Source: a virus
IMG/VR virus record: IMGVR_UViG_3300020160_001165
Span: 1-32,199 of that record
DNA: 32,199 nucleotides
Reading direction: 5' to 3' (one strand)
Below, piece by piece: positions 12,222 to 23,930 of this stretch. Each line of letters opens with the position of its first letter. The stretch's first letter is position 1. The notes beneath the pieces were generated by a model. The model was not told the DNA's origin, did not search any database, and was given only the letters and a program-made list of their open reading frames with translations. The position numbers and the translations under genes are program-made.

Positions 12222-12407
12222 TTAAAATTCTTTTTTTACTTCGTCATGTTCATGATCAAGTTCGTGAACAACTGATTCAAGTTTTTTTATCATAATTTTC
12301 ATAACGGTATTCTCCATAATAAGGTTGGAGATTGTTCCGGTCAATTCCTTGACGATTTCATCGTAAGAAGGATTTACATCTTCTCTTGTTATAGGCTTTC
12401 GAGCCAT
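12222..12407 (-). CDS. Small helical protein following the terminase
   Basis: This 61-residue protein begins MARKPITREDVNPSYDEIVK and is then a continuous helix with a histidine/glutamate-rich coiled-coil end (ESVVHELDHEHDEVKKEF). Its ATG overlaps the end of the large terminase gene by 19 nt. No family recognised; the position right after the terminase hints at a packaging or head-related role, without direct evidence. Confidence 0.7.
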   Translation of the reverse strand: MARKPITREDVNPSYDEIVKELTGTISNLIMENTVMKIMIKKLESVVHELDHEHDEVKKEF

Positions 12408-14131
12408 TTTTCACCACTTTCTGTAGATAAGGTTTGTTTTTCATAGCCAGGAACAAACTGGCCAATATCATTATTATACACCCTAACCGTACCAAATTCT
12501 TCCATATCGTCAAGCTCTTCATATTGCTTGAAGTCAGAGCCAAGAATTTCAATATCGACTTCCATTTCCATTGACATATTCTCAACACATGTGAAAACTG
12601 AACCGGCTAATGCGTCAGCCAAATCTTTTGATCCAGAGTTCGGGTGATCAATTTTGTTATTAGCAAACAATCTTAATTTCAACAATTCTTCCTCAACCAA
12701 TAACTCATTCCAATAACCACGCAATCTTGTATCATATATTGTTGTCATTAAAGTATCGTAATCAGTTTTCTTAACGCTATGGAAATCAGCATTGATACCT
12801 TGCGCTTTAAGACTTTGGATCATCTCAATGGATTGCCAACGGTCAAAAGTTACTTTTGCTACATCGAATTTTCTACACAATTCAATAATCATTTGCCTAA
12901 CTGAAGCAAAATTTATTTCAGCTCCGGGAGCTGCTTCCCAAGAATGAATCAAATCAACATTAATAACAGGAAGGTTTTCCACTCCCATAGATGTTTTAAT
13001 TTCCTTAAAGCCAGCGCAATGGCTCATACATAAAGCTGACCTGTCTCTTTTAAGGCCTAAGTCAATATGAATAAACCTTCTGTGCCCATCTGTATTGTTA
13101 AACCAAGGCTTATAAATACCATCTTCATCAACAGGGCTTTCTGCATGCATAAAAGATTTCCTTACTAGATCAGGATCTCTAAAGTATGCGTCTTCCATTG
13201 CCGGAGGTTCACATTCAAATCTTGCCCTAGCCTCAATTGGATTTCTAATATATTCTGATTCTAATTGATGTCTTTCAATCGTAGGATTACATTCCCATGT
13301 AGCAGCTTTAATTCTCCAAGTTTTTGGCTCTTCTCTTTCAGCAGAACCAAAATATCTTTGTTGAATAAAGTCTCCTTTATATCTAGGGAATGACAAAAGG
13401 ATAACCTTACCGACTTCCGGGAAACGAGACATAACAGATAACTTACTCATGTTATAAATTGCAGAGGCAGAACCTTTTGATCTTAATTCCCCTCTTGTTT
13501 CCGCATCTGTTTTAAAAGCTGAGATCTCATCCAAAATTACAGTCATAACTTCATAACCTTCCCATCCTTCACTTTCAGAGTGACCTGAAAAGCATCGTAC
13601 TGGTCTGCTAAAGAAAAAGATTTCCGATACTCTTGGCTCGAATCCAACTTGATTAAAATAAGGTGAACTTAACAATAGGTTCTTCAAAGGTTCAAAAAAA
13701 ACTCTTTGAGCTTGCTGTGCGTTAACAGCTAAGTTAAGAAGGTCAATATATACACCCTTTGCTTTTCCATAATAACCTAATGGGTCTTTTAGGCAATGGA
13801 GAATATAAACGGTATAAGCCATTGATATTCTTGCACAATGGTCTTTTCCAGAACCCTTGCCTAACATGCAGATTACTTCGTTGTCGGTATATTTTTTATA
13901 ATATTCTGATCCCTTTTCCTCTCCCATCATCTTTTGTAGGGTATGCTCTTTCAGGATTTGGGTACTGTGCCTTACTATTTCCAATTGAATTGGGCTTAAA
14001 TTTGGTAAACCTAAAAATCTTTTATCAGTTACAAATTCTTCAATAGATACCGGCACTTCTTCAAGTTCATCTTGATTTAATAGTTTATCAAAATCTTCAT
14101 ATCGAAGATTCATTCCGAGATAATCACTCAT
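12389..14131 (-). CDS. terL: Terminase large subunit
   Basis: This is the DNA-packaging motor of tailed phages: an N-terminal ATPase translocates DNA into the prohead and a C-terminal RNase H-like nuclease cuts the concatemer. The 580-residue product shows a P-loop LGKGSGKD (90-97), a Walker B/glutamate pair VILDE (198-202), a coupling-type LSFPR segment (246-250), and nuclease acidic residues in HIDLG (D357), TFDRW (D430) and SKDLADAL (D503 and D506). Length is typical. AAAGGAG lies before the ATG. It follows the putative small subunit, separated by 115 nt containing tandem repeats. Confidence 0.95.
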   Translation of the reverse strand: MSDYLGMNLRYEDFDKLLNQDELEEVPVSIEEFVTDKRFLGLPNLSPIQLEIVRHSTQILKEHTLQKMMGEEKGSEYYKKYTDNEVICMLGKGSGKDHCARISMAYTVYILHCLKDPLGYYGKAKGVYIDLLNLAVNAQQAQRVFFEPLKNLLLSSPYFNQVGFEPRVSEIFFFSRPVRCFSGHSESEGWEGYEVMTVILDEISAFKTDAETRGELRSKGSASAIYNMSKLSVMSRFPEVGKVILLSFPRYKGDFIQQRYFGSAEREEPKTWRIKAATWECNPTIERHQLESEYIRNPIEARARFECEPPAMEDAYFRDPDLVRKSFMHAESPVDEDGIYKPWFNNTDGHRRFIHIDLGLKRDRSALCMSHCAGFKEIKTSMGVENLPVINVDLIHSWEAAPGAEINFASVRQMIIELCRKFDVAKVTFDRWQSIEMIQSLKAQGINADFHSVKKTDYDTLMTTIYDTRLRGYWNELLVEEELLKLRLFANNKIDHPNSGSKDLADALAGSVFTCVENMSMEMEVDIEILGSDFKQYEELDDMEEFGTVRVYNNDIGQFVPGYEKQTLSTESGEKWLESL

Positions 14132-14148
14132 TTATTTTGCTCCTTTAG

Positions 14149-14251
14149 CAAGTAAGGGCCCAAAAAGCCGTCTCTTCTTATAATGGGTAAGGCCCCTAAA
14201 AAGAGTCTCTTTATATGAGGGTAAGGCCTTGTTTTTCCGTCTCTTCTTATG
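14149..14251. repeat. Three imperfect 34-35 bp tandem repeats between terminase genes
   Basis: On the minus strand three units (14251-14218, 14217-14183, 14182-14149) share AAGAGAC, a homopolymeric A/T patch and GGCCTTAC (GCCCTTAC in the third). Distances between matching AAGAGAC and CCTTAC elements are 34 and 35 bp. The first unit overlaps the stop codon of the upstream gene; the last ends just before the ribosome binding site of terL. The stretch is open in one frame but has no independent start. Candidate roles are a packaging (pac/cos) recognition site for the small subunit, or a translational control element. Confidence 0.75.
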
Positions 14252-14846
14252 GTTCAGTAATTTCTGCATCGCTAATTTCCTCACTATCAACATCAACGAC
14301 TTCTTCCTCAGCCATAATCTCAAAAGCTATTGCTAACTCTCTTCTTACAGCATCAGCAATCTCTGGGTACTTGGAAATAACATCACGAAGAACTCTTGAG
14401 AGTATTTGGTTAACATTCTCAGCTTTCTGCATTCGTGCAATGTATTCCCCATCAGAAGTGTTAATGCCCAACAACTTGTGTAACTGAGCTTTCTTTGTTG
14501 CCAGTTCACCCGCAAGTTTGATTGCAGAAATTCTTGCCGGAACCATTCCATGATCTGTTGCAATATTGATTGTCTCCCAAGCCTCTTTGCTCAACTGATC
14601 AAATTCTTGGAGTGCTTTTACAGTATTAAACTGAACTCTTTCAAGGAAATATGGGTCTTCATCTGCTTGGCGATTGAGAATCTTCTTGTATTCATCAATG
14701 TATATTTTTACATCATTTGTTTTTAAAGCCATTAGTGATGCAATTTCATGCATTGAATAGCCTTTTATGTGAAGAAGACCAACTTCTTCCACATCTCTTA
14801 ATTTTTCAATTAAAGTTTTACTTTCAGTTCTTTCGATATCTGACAT
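14247..14846 (-). CDS. terS: Putative terminase small subunit
   Basis: In tailed phages the small subunit recognises the packaging site and loads DNA on the large subunit. This 199-residue protein directly precedes terL and begins with a helix-turn-helix-like segment (LLHIKGYSMHEIASLMALKT, about 24-43) followed by long helices (NTVKALQEFDQLSKEAWETI, about 74-93) and an acidic disordered tail. That DNA-binding/oligomerisation/acidic-tail layout and the gene order fit a small terminase, but sequence identity of this family is too low to be certain. The start at 14846 overlaps the upstream glycosyltransferase gene by 37 nt. Confidence 0.65.
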   Translation of the reverse strand: MSDIERTESKTLIEKLRDVEEVGLLHIKGYSMHEIASLMALKTNDVKIYIDEYKKILNRQADEDPYFLERVQFNTVKALQEFDQLSKEAWETINIATDHGMVPARISAIKLAGELATKKAQLHKLLGINTSDGEYIARMQKAENVNQILSRVLRDVISKYPEIADAVRRELAIAFEIMAEEEVVDVDSEEISDAEITEP

Positions 14847-15886
14847 AATCTTTCGTAGTACCCTTCTGCAGCAGAATCCCAGCTCATAGTCTGTTCATTT
14901 AGTACGGCATTATTAAATGTATAATCAGAAACTACATCGTAGTTATTGTATACATATAACATTTTATCACATAAATCATCAAATTTTGGCTTTGCCCAAG
15001 TACCACAGTCACTATAAATACCATTCATATTAATAGAACTATCTTCAAACTCTAATGGGACTGATAACTCTGCGTACTCTGTACAAGCAGTTGCATTGGT
15101 GCAAATTGTTGGGATACCTTTTGCTATACCCTGATAAGGGAGCATCCCCCAACCTTCACCGCTTGTTGGATAGACAACACAATCACATAAGTCATAAATA
15201 TTGCTCAACTCTTCCATTGAGACATCTTTATCAATCACATCTATTTGAGGATGTTTCTCGATAGCAAGCATCTCTCCAGATTTGTACCATCGGGCATCAG
15301 GAGCGTCTATGCTCTTATAAAGGAGTCTTATACTCTCATCGCCTGAAAATATCTTTATAAAAGCATCCACAGTCATCTGAGTATTCTTGCGAGTCGATGG
15401 TGATCCAATACAAAGGAAAGTAAATTTATTATCAACGAAGGAAGCAAACCTTCTCTTGGGACTGAATAGTTTGTTAACTCCAAGTCTGAAATTAAAAACA
15501 GGAACTGTCACACCGGATTCTTCAAAAACATTCTTTGCCCAAAGAGATGTTGTCCATATCTCATCCATTTGATTCATTCGAGAAACCCAATCACTTGGTA
15601 ACTTGCTTGTTTCCCAATATGAAAAACCAATGTTGTACTTATTCGATACAGTATAGTCAAGAGGTAATCTATTATTTATGAATACATCTGCTTCAATATT
15701 AATTGATGCACTAGATTGATATTCAATACCGAGTAGTGACAAGTCTTGAATGTCGGATGGTATAAGACATGTTCTTTCAATGTCCATTCCTTTCCCAACA
15801 AGACGACTGTGGATCTCATCTTCAGCGACCTTGTAGCCCTCATTGCGCTCCTGAGAGACGCTAGTGCCATTCCAAATGATTTTCAT
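14810..15886 (-). CDS. GT-B (GT4-like) glycosyltransferase
   Basis: This 358-residue protein is probably a retaining GT-B sugar transferase using a nucleotide-sugar donor. The second Rossmann half begins near FLCIGSPSTRKN (157-168), and the donor-site signature YPTSGEGWGMLPYQGIAKG (239-257) matches the GT4 'EG.G....EA...G.P' pattern, although the usual second glutamate is replaced by glutamine. IGFSYWETSKLP (86-97) and DEIWTTS (108-114) resemble GT4 proteins that act on large acceptors. No membrane anchor is seen. It lies between a YkgJ-type gene and the small terminase, so expression with packaging genes suggests a virion target, but a DNA target is also possible. Confidence 0.88.
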   Translation of the reverse strand: MKIIWNGTSVSQERNEGYKVAEDEIHSRLVGKGMDIERTCLIPSDIQDLSLLGIEYQSSASINIEADVFINNRLPLDYTVSNKYNIGFSYWETSKLPSDWVSRMNQMDEIWTTSLWAKNVFEESGVTVPVFNFRLGVNKLFSPKRRFASFVDNKFTFLCIGSPSTRKNTQMTVDAFIKIFSGDESIRLLYKSIDAPDARWYKSGEMLAIEKHPQIDVIDKDVSMEELSNIYDLCDCVVYPTSGEGWGMLPYQGIAKGIPTICTNATACTEYAELSVPLEFEDSSINMNGIYSDCGTWAKPKFDDLCDKMLYVYNNYDVVSDYTFNNAVLNEQTMSWDSAAEGYYERLCQISKELKVKL

Positions 15887-18534: not shown

Positions 18535-18848
18535 TTATAAGTTCCTTTACCTGAAATTTTGAGTGCATTTATATTTTCAGACAATGCTTCATACATTGTC
18601 TTCCAAATATCATTAACAAGTTTATCTTGCTCATTCATAATACTTGATTTTCTCTTGAATGCTTGAGATTTGATAATCATTTGTGTCCTATAAGCAGCTA
18701 AAACATTAGCATATTTAATTGCTTGCATTCCAACATAATGATCCGGATTATCAATAATATCCTGAACAATCCTCATGCACTCAATGAATTCCTTTGCTTT
18801 ATCACCCATCTGTGACGCAAGCCATTCTTCATTAACAATTATATCCAT
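18531..18848 (-). CDS. Small helical protein, unknown function
   Basis: This 105-residue protein is predicted all-helical (EEWLASQMGDKAKEFIECMR, about 7-26; MQAIKYANVLAAYRTQMIIK, about 41-60). No motif recognised. It lies between the cytosine methyltransferase and the Cas4-like nuclease, overlapping both, and has AAAGGAAATTAAAAA before the ATG. It might be an accessory subunit for one of them. Confidence 0.75.
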   Translation of the reverse strand: MDIIVNEEWLASQMGDKAKEFIECMRIVQDIIDNPDHYVGMQAIKYANVLAAYRTQMIIKSQAFKRKSSIMNEQDKLVNDIWKTMYEALSENINALKISGKGTYN

Positions 18849-20140
18849 TTTTTAATTTCCTTTCCTATCCACTCTGCTACTGGTGATGCAATGGCGTTAC
18901 CACACATCTTGTAGCGATTTGTGTCAGCAATTATCTTATCATCTGCGGTGAGTCTTGTATGGTCGTCAGGGAACCCCATCAACCGTTCACATTCCAATGG
19001 TGTCAATCTTCTTAAAACCAATTCCGGTGTGCAAACACCATGTTGTGAAATTGTATCAAGAGTATAAGACGGATCACCAATCTCACCAAAACCTTTACCT
19101 TGTGGACCAGAAGTGTCTGCTCTTCCTATGATTGTTCCTTGTATTGGGATAGCAACTTGCTCACCAATAAGAGGAACTTGACCACCACCTGTGCCCATTC
19201 TGTGTTTTAATGTTGGCATAATTCCATCTTCGTATATACGAACATCATTAACCCTTGTTCCATCAACTATTATTACAGTTGAGCGGCTATCACCTGTGTT
19301 GTCAAAAGCGTTTAGAGTCGGCGCTACGGCATTTGTAATCCAAGATTCATCATCTTCAGTGCTTTGAGCTCTTTTAGATTTGACATAAGGCTCCAGTATG
19401 AAGTTCATATCTGGTCTTTTATAATCAGATGCTGAGAGACTTACTCCGCCTTCTTCGTACTTACTGAATCCAGTTTTTCCGTACCAGATAGGTTCACTAA
19501 CGCTTGCCTCAACGGTTCTGGAAGCCTGTTTCCTTTTCTTTCGGCTCTTCTTAATATCCCCTCTGCTGTCTTCGGGGACAGGTAGAATTTTTCCACCACT
19601 TCGCTCAAGGGCTGAAGAATCCCAACTAGCGATGACGAATACTCGTCTTCTACGCTGGGGGACTCCGAACCACTGTGCATCCAAGATGTGCCATTCGATT
19701 CCCAATGCCCCGATGTTTGCCATTTGGTCAAGGACTTCTCCGAAGTCTTTTCCATTATTACTTGTGAGGGCGCCTGGTACATTTTCCCAGATTGCCCATT
19801 TTGGATATTGATTATTGGTTGCATTACGCATCTCCTTTATTATTCTAATTGCTTCAAAAAATAGACCTGAACGATTGCCTTCAAGTCCTGAACGCTTACC
19901 TGCTACAGATAAGTCTTGGCATGGTGAACCAAATGATATTAAATCAACTGGTGGTAAGTCTGCGCCATTGACATCTCTTACATCTTCAAACTTGGGCACA
20001 TTCGGCCAGTGTTTCTTCAATACACTTTGACAATGTTTATCCCATTCAACTTGGAACTTGCAATTCCATCCTGCTGAGTCAAATCCTAAATCAAATCCGC
20101 CTACTCCGGCAAATAAACTTCCATAAGTTAACTGTCCCAT
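18839..20140 (-). CDS. DNA (cytosine-5-)-methyltransferase
   Basis: This 433-residue protein transfers a methyl group from SAM to C5 of cytosine in DNA. Motif I FAGVGGFDLG (10-19), motif IV with the catalytic PC (GSPCQDLS, 71-78, C74), motif VI WENV (118-121), motif VIII QRRRRVF (162-168) and motif X near the C-terminus (CGNAIASPV) are all in order. A target-recognition region of roughly 200 residues lies between VIII and IX. No restriction endonuclease gene is adjacent, so it is an orphan methyltransferase that may protect phage DNA from host restriction. Target sequence cannot be read from the protein. Confidence 0.95.
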   Translation of the reverse strand: MGQLTYGSLFAGVGGFDLGFDSAGWNCKFQVEWDKHCQSVLKKHWPNVPKFEDVRDVNGADLPPVDLISFGSPCQDLSVAGKRSGLEGNRSGLFFEAIRIIKEMRNATNNQYPKWAIWENVPGALTSNNGKDFGEVLDQMANIGALGIEWHILDAQWFGVPQRRRRVFVIASWDSSALERSGGKILPVPEDSRGDIKKSRKKRKQASRTVEASVSEPIWYGKTGFSKYEEGGVSLSASDYKRPDMNFILEPYVKSKRAQSTEDDESWITNAVAPTLNAFDNTGDSRSTVIIVDGTRVNDVRIYEDGIMPTLKHRMGTGGGQVPLIGEQVAIPIQGTIIGRADTSGPQGKGFGEIGDPSYTLDTISQHGVCTPELVLRRLTPLECERLMGFPDDHTRLTADDKIIADTNRYKMCGNAIASPVAEWIGKEIKKWI

Positions 20141-22877: not shown

Positions 22878-23930
22878 TTAGTGAAAAGTTTTTGTGCCAA
22901 GTCTTTTCACTACAGACTTGAGGAACTCATCGCACCTTGTTTGCCAATTGTACCTTGCGTAAACAGATGGCGCTTGATTAAAGTAATAATTTATTTCGTC
23001 ATCAAAATTATCCACTACTCTTCTCATTAAATAAATTAAAGAATCAATTTCAGGAAGAATAACATCTCCACAGGTGTACCCAGTGTTTTGGGTCTTTCCT
23101 AATTTGGCATCTATAATATTTCTACCCAAGAGGTCTTTATAAGAGCACCACAAACCTGTTGAAATAACTGGCATGCCGGTAGCAAGTGCTTGTAAGGGAA
23201 TAAACCCAAACCCCTCACCCTCACTAGGGTAAATCAAAACATCATGATCATAGTAAAGCTTAATTAAATCTTCTTGGGATAGAGTTTCATGAATGTAAGT
23301 GATGTTGTCATGACGAGGCACCAGCATTGATGATAAACCAAAGCCTTCTGTATTCTCATTACCGTGATATTTCAAAGTTAAAGACACATCATGTCTGTCC
23401 TGAAATGCTTTAGAAAAGGCAGCCTGTGCCATGTCGGCCCTCTTCCTGGGGCTTGCTGAATCAATGTGTAAGAATTTTATCTTTCTATCTCCACCTCTTC
23501 TGTGAGGCTTCCACATATCGTCAATTCCCATTTCAAAAACATATGTTGGAGTTGTAATTCCGGAATTGATAACAGCGTCTTGTGCAAAATAATTACCAAC
23601 CCATATCTCATCTACACGATTCATTGCATCAATCCAATGATCCCAAACTCTTGTTGCTTCTAAATGAGTACCTTGTATTTTGTATTGATTATCATAAAAT
23701 TTTTTAAAATCAGAAGTACGCAAATTCTGCATGTTGTAATGGTTGTATCTCTCAGGCTCCATGTAGAATAACTGAGCATTGGCTTCACTTGAATTATCAA
23801 GTATTCTCATCTTTTCATTCCTGTAAGTAAACTTAGAGAAATGATCAATCATTTTATAATAACTATATGAATAACCGGATGAACCGTTCGCATCTTTAAC
23901 AAACTGGTCTGTATGCAATGATAACTTCAA
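22878..23930 (-). CDS. GT-B (GT4-like) glycosyltransferase
   Basis: This 350-residue protein begins MKLSLHTDQFVKDANG as in other phage GT4-like proteins. RVDEIWVGNYFAQDAV (105-120), KFLHIDSASPRKRAD (152-166) and the donor site YPSEGEGFGFIPLQALATG (234-252) are present; as in the second GT-B enzyme of this window, glutamine replaces the last glutamate of the E-x7-E pattern. The start is TTG at 23930, supported by TTGGAGAAG. Directly upstream are two methyltransferase-like genes, so the three probably build or modify one glycan. Confidence 0.88.
   Translation of the reverse strand: MKLSLHTDQFVKDANGSSGYSYSYYKMIDHFSKFTYRNEKMRILDNSSEANAQLFYMEPERYNHYNMQNLRTSDFKKFYDNQYKIQGTHLEATRVWDHWIDAMNRVDEIWVGNYFAQDAVINSGITTPTYVFEMGIDDMWKPHRRGGDRKIKFLHIDSASPRKRADMAQAAFSKAFQDRHDVSLTLKYHGNENTEGFGLSSMLVPRHDNITYIHETLSQEDLIKLYYDHDVLIYPSEGEGFGFIPLQALATGMPVISTGLWCSYKDLLGRNIIDAKLGKTQNTGYTCGDVILPEIDSLIYLMRRVVDNFDDEINYYFNQAPSVYARYNWQTRCDEFLKSVVKRLGTKTFH

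Follow-up and report, generated by a model that had tools for sequence, protein, structure and literature searches.

Tandem repeats between the terminase genes and a distant solitary copy as candidate TerS recognition sites in a family of uncultured phages

The virus record analysed here, a stretch of 32,199 bp that is referred to as the window, carries a tandem repeat array in the gap between a candidate small terminase gene (terS) and the large terminase gene (terL). The array, together with one further site about 25 kb downstream at a probable genome terminus, is best explained as a set of double-stranded DNA recognition sites for the phages' own TerS, a reading to which we assign a probability of roughly two in three. 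The family of uncultured phages to which the window belongs would accordingly have two packaging addresses, of which the one away from the terS-terL gap is the probable genome end. To our knowledge, end recognition by phages with long terminal repeats (T5/SPO1/BE type) is poorly understood. Sequence comparison alone yields a candidate recognition sequence, a probable reader and one suspected specificity residue, which makes packaging specificity and termini directly testable in this phage group.

The repeat array and the terminase genes of the window

The array and the genes that flank it are all located on the minus strand:

14247..14846, minus strand: candidate TerS, 199 aa, HTH protein encoded immediately 5' of terL, assigned from position, HTH matches and distant homology
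14676..14777, minus strand: TerS HTH, residues 24-57, with AF2 helices 32-39 and 43-63
14712-14714, minus strand: codon of TerS residue 45, the specificity candidate, which separates GAGA from non-GAGA lineages
14220..14245, minus strand: repeat unit 1, 26 nt, core AAGAGACGGAAAAACAAGGCCTTACC, starts at the terS stop
14186..14211, minus strand: repeat unit 2, 26 nt, core AAGAGACTCTTTTTAGGGGCCTTACC
14151..14176, minus strand: repeat unit 3, 26 nt, core AAGAGACGGCTTTTTGGGCCCTTACT
14140..14146, minus strand: ribosome-binding site of terL, AAAGGAG, assigned from the sequence
12389..14131, minus strand: TerL, 580 aa, PHROG_2 terminase large subunit, E 1.4e-18

The gap between the two genes measures 115 bp. 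Its repeat periods (14152-14186, 14187-14221 and 14221-14255) are spaced 35 and 34 bp from start to start. In minus-strand orientation, the terS stop codon (14249-14247) marks the beginning of unit 1, and unit 3 stops just 5' of AAAGGAG, which is followed by the terL ATG at 14131. With a TRF score of 96 (runner-up 68), the array ranks first among the tandem repeats of the window, and the gap reaches a tandem score of 45 against a mean of 28.4 (sd 2.3, max 38) in 200 dinucleotide-preserving shuffles. A 26-nt PWM built from the three units matches only the array within the 32-kb window, with 27.4-30.6 bits compared to about 15 bits for the best match in Markov sequence. The three tandem repeats of 34-35 bp that a first-pass annotation had described between the terminase genes are thus real, and they extend from the terS stop to the ribosome-binding site of terL as it had proposed. 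By eye, A and T tracts interchange between the units. Elsewhere in the window, a two-copy 24-bp tandem repeat (1555-1602) has a TRF score of 68.

TerL shares about 39% identity with the TerL of Stanwilliamsviridae phages. The assignment of the HTH protein upstream of terL as TerS is well supported by its position, its HTH and its distant homology. It directly adjoins terL on the upstream side in the loci read, and a distant homologue in phage Elmer is annotated as terminase small subunit. Weak profile matches place the HTH among the sigma-4/GerE/Terminase_5 kind. The AF2 model has a mean pLDDT of 65 overall and of 78 at residues 41-50, and residue 45 is located where the predicted recognition helix (43-63) begins. 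In a comparison of this model (pLDDT 65) with the PDB, no solved small terminase was matched, and HTH regulators were matched weakly. The window also encodes a C5-cytosine DNA methyltransferase (18839-20140, minus strand; PF00145, E 1.6e-63) and two PHROG_2170 glycosyltransferases (14810-15886 and 22878-23930).

Conservation of the array across the family

Searches with TerL and with TerS hit more than 300 IMG/VR stretches each. The 80 best of these were read, and dereplication at 90% gave 25 TerS lineages. In 19 of these 25, the same terS-terL gap holds two to four tandem GAGA-type units, so that the layout of the array is kept in relatives and a repeated motif lies near the terminase genes in most lineages. 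The spacing is mostly 33-36 or 41-46 bp, and some arrays start inside the last terS codons. In the direction of terL, the consensus of the GAGA unit reads CTCA-N5-TGAGA-C, followed by an A/T tract and GCC-TTAC (the last part is also given as GCC-TTA). The spelling of the unit drifts across lineages while the layout is retained. The unit is spelled differently in further lineages: L128 carries TTTGTGAAGTC in two of three units, L100 has a non-GAGA core with the spelling CTAAAGGAAC, and L142 and L151 share the spelling TGAAATGAGTCC...CTCAT. L061 and L075 have no clear array in the terS-terL gap. The exact spelling of the window was matched at 10 loci in a pattern search. Three loci (L244, L249 and L252) that were considered as terminus arrays proved to be terS-terL gaps with 42-bp spacing and were rejected as such.

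On a given strand, the A/T tract may be rich in T or in A, and some arrays contain both forms. Its presence in either strand orientation fits reading of the duplex rather than of an RNA.

A solitary copy in a distant non-coding gap

Four whole long contigs and the window were scanned genome-wide with PWMs made from each genome's own units. Beyond the arrays, the scan gave one strong match, which lies in a non-coding gap of contig G001, 24 kb downstream of terL. The corresponding gap was located in other lineages by synteny, by the terminator-like hairpin or by pattern search. A 13-nt core PWM is too weak for genome-wide specificity. A unit-like copy on the terL strand is present in each gap (G001, G002, G003, G005, G008, G013, G016, G018, G022, G023, G026, G027, G035 and G036), 23-26 kb downstream of terL and after the terminator-like hairpin. 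These lineages are not all independent, as G026 and G001 do not differ over the 3 kb compared. The solitary copy reads TCATATAAAGAGACTATAAAAGAGAGGCCTATCG in G023, whose TerL matches that of the window at 100%, and TCATAAGAAGAGAATCTAATATTTAGGCCTTACC in G036, where both halves of the unit are present. Outside of G001 and the AAGAGAC-type clades its 3' half is degenerate.

In G001 and G005, for which the flanks were mapped, the solitary copy follows a block of small genes, and the next genes converge on it. No gene starts downstream of it on its strand, which speaks against a role as promoter or in translation at this place. This bears on the view that the HTH protein is a transcription regulator, with the array as an operator that limits read-through into terL and the solitary copy as a second operator. 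The HTH does resemble LuxR/GerE and sigma region 4, one homologue carries the annotation of a putative sigma factor, and the space between two genes of one operon is a natural place for autoregulation. We nevertheless consider a regulator unlikely, given the converging genes at the solitary copy and given that the scan of the four long contigs and the window revealed no unit ahead of other genes. A resemblance of the units to tandem promoters (TTGAGA-N15-TATR), noted by eye, was rejected owing to the short spacer and to the absence of the unit ahead of other genes in the sequences scanned.

Control at the RNA level, in which leader repeats regulate the translation of terL or transcription termination, would fit the position of the array in the terL leader and a strong hairpin at the same place in Streptomyces relatives (z about -6.8). 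The folding z-score, however, is -0.70 in the window and between -1.9 and +1.1 in most relatives (one reaches -3.2), and it is near zero in 11 of 12 arrays. The interchange of A/T tracts between units would change the RNA completely, and the motif also occurs outside of a leader, in a gap without a following gene on its strand. Translational control of terL, which the first-pass annotation had named as the alternative, therefore receives little support, and RNA-level control as a whole appears very improbable.

Further elements accompany the solitary copy. Several lineages carry a second GAGA-type element (AAGAGACG...CTCAA) before the terminator (L209:2728, minus strand; G003:59989, plus strand; G002:24970, minus strand). 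The element at this place reads AAGTGAAGCGTACACAAC in G018, where it perhaps follows the switched core. In G016 (L202:13350-14450) and G022 (L213:8700-9650), the solitary unit is followed within its gap by two more degenerate copies (CATAATTTGAAA...CCCTTACC). In G005 (L188:14138-15700) and G013 (L183:1959-2264), small paralogous genes in tandem come after the terminus-like gap; they are encoded on the opposite strand, each near a conserved inverted repeat. When terminus loci were sought via the small paralogous gene beside this gap, the only matches were the source contig or contigs near-identical to it.

Concerted change of array, solitary copy and TerS

Array and solitary cores resemble each other more within genomes than between them. 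Their match sum is 91, compared to a permuted mean of 74.8 (sd 4.7; p=2e-4). G003 and G022 are exceptions, as their solitary copy is no closer to their own array than to others. Vertical descent contributes part of the match. That two non-homologous places about 25 kb apart share the same changing spelling suggests one reader.

The identity of this reader is suggested by the TerS alignment of the 25 lineages, in which residue 45 is the one column outside of the gappy C-terminal tail that separates the GAGA lineages from L128, L142, L151, L061 and L075. These non-GAGA lineages take up two or three separate places on the TerL tree, and none of the 579 TerL columns separates them from the GAGA lineages. 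L100 is an exception, with Glu45 despite its non-GAGA core. In G018, the cores of the array and of the solitary copy depart from the norm together with TerS residue 45: TTGTGAAG is common to the solitary copy and two of three array units, and residue 45 is Ala, while it is Asp or Glu in the GAGA genomes checked. G018 is thus a natural lineage in which the recognition sequence and the suspected TerS residue differ together. We infer from these patterns that the array and the solitary copy are sites read by TerS.

The units could also be origin iterons or sites of another phage DNA-binding protein, given that replication origins typically contain tandem iterons with A/T tracts and that the motif is found again at a likely genome end. 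This is just as improbable as RNA-level control, since the covariation, examined in TerS and TerL, points to TerS residue 45, and the neighbors of the array are terminase genes and not an initiator.

The probable genome terminus

The blocks of the family follow the order of Streptomyces phage Jay2Jay: structural genes, helicase, primase, DNA polymerase III, RecA, terS, terL, small genes, gap and mixed-strand early genes. The Jay2Jay gap that is syntenic with the solitary-copy gap holds the left edge of an exact 11,438-bp direct terminal repeat (DTR; record position 122,094). In Jay2Jay, the isolate examined for this comparison, the distance from terL to the terminus downstream of it is about 52 kb. 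For cluster BE1, direct terminal repeats measuring about 11 kb have been reported (PMC5764925). Based on the synteny with Jay2Jay, we infer that the genomes of the uncultured family end in the same way, and the solitary-copy gap is probably a genome terminus and the edge of a long direct terminal repeat.

Four contig ends are situated within 200 bp of the solitary copy (G004, G026, G027 and G035). G004 ends 36 bp before it and G035 inside the unit, while G027 begins 159 bp and G026 196 bp before it. G004 and G027, which stem from one sample, overlap at this gap by exactly 123 bp. The clustering suggests a special spot, but could also reflect assembly difficulty. The family is represented by fragments, all of them classed as linear and lacking end repeats, and no terminal repeat is seen in any family contig. 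The array repeats are absent from the isolates with deposited ends. In Jay2Jay, the terS-terL gap and the DTR edge have no 10-mer in common, and no scoring tandem repeat is found near the DTR edges, which show short two-copy matches only. L254 (contig 3300034109_000763) and G001, which come from different samples, were compared over 3 kb on the side of the terminus and over 4 kb at the opposite end, and are 100% identical in both.

The distance of about 25 kb between the array, which lies in the terS-terL gap, and the proposed terminus counts against the preferred reading. In an alternative, headful (pac) packaging would start at the array, and the solitary copy would be a secondary or relic site. 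Stronger binding is expected of an array with several units than of a single copy. SPP1 has pac repeats at its terS gene (PMC4737164). The nearest isolates, however, have long fixed terminal repeats with an edge at the other gap, and the solitary copy retains the spelling of its own clade, which leaves a headful start at the array improbable, and less probable than a regulator. The first-pass annotation had interpreted the repeats as a packaging site. What holds of this are probable DNA-level recognition sites tied to TerS, as their architecture is kept, they recur at one other terminus-like place and they vary with the recognition helix. The interval itself is disfavored as the cut site, as the Jay2Jay terminus is syntenic with the solitary-copy gap, about 25 kb from the array.

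Proposed mechanism and comparison with known systems

In the proposed mechanism of TerS recognition, the HTH recognition helix would read the GAGA-type core, assisted by the A/T tract and the GCC-TTAC half. TerS would probably load on the array beside its own gene and on the terminal copy, and would bring TerL to the terminus for cutting or the start of packaging. The array may additionally regulate terL. A tentative extension, which we regard as possible but doubtful, is a two-site packaging code of phages with long DTRs, in which the same TerS reads the array and the terminal copy about 25 kb apart and joins both to choose the first cut, while site and reader evolve in concert and give each lineage its own specificity.

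In lambda, the R sites of cosB are several TerS-binding repeats with bendable DNA between them, and cosB adjoins the cut site cosN upstream of terS. The family array likewise consists of several putative TerS-binding repeats with bendable DNA in between, but it comes after terS, with the probable cut about 25 kb off. The pac region of SPP1/SF6 contains the direct repeats boxA, boxB and boxC at terS, which are proposed targets of an HTH small terminase (PMC4737164). Direct repeats at the terS gene and an HTH small terminase are thus shared, whereas the SPP1 repeats cover the promoters and start of terS and the family array lies in the terS-terL gap. The DNA-binding domain of SF6 binds without sequence preference, while in the family spelling and HTH change together. 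The second, distant copy at the terminus is a feature of the family that is not described for SPP1/SF6. The pac sites proposed for T4 gp16 lie in genes 16 and 19, one of them at the terS gene, and are part of a synapsis model (PMC9958956). Both systems have two separate places thought to be recognized by TerS, one at the terS gene; the T4 sites are putative and defined by recombination, whereas the family has a clear repeated motif at both places.

The Stanwilliamsviridae (Jay2Jay, Elmer and Coruscant) share homologous TerS and TerL, the block order and the gap before the early region. They differ in that their terS-terL gap holds a long hairpin and not repeats, and in that their long terminal repeat is deposited, while the family consists of fragments only. 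In Elmer and Jay2Jay (L191:1985-2060 and L196:1950-2010), this hairpin is near-perfect and stands directly before the terL start codon (z about -6.8).
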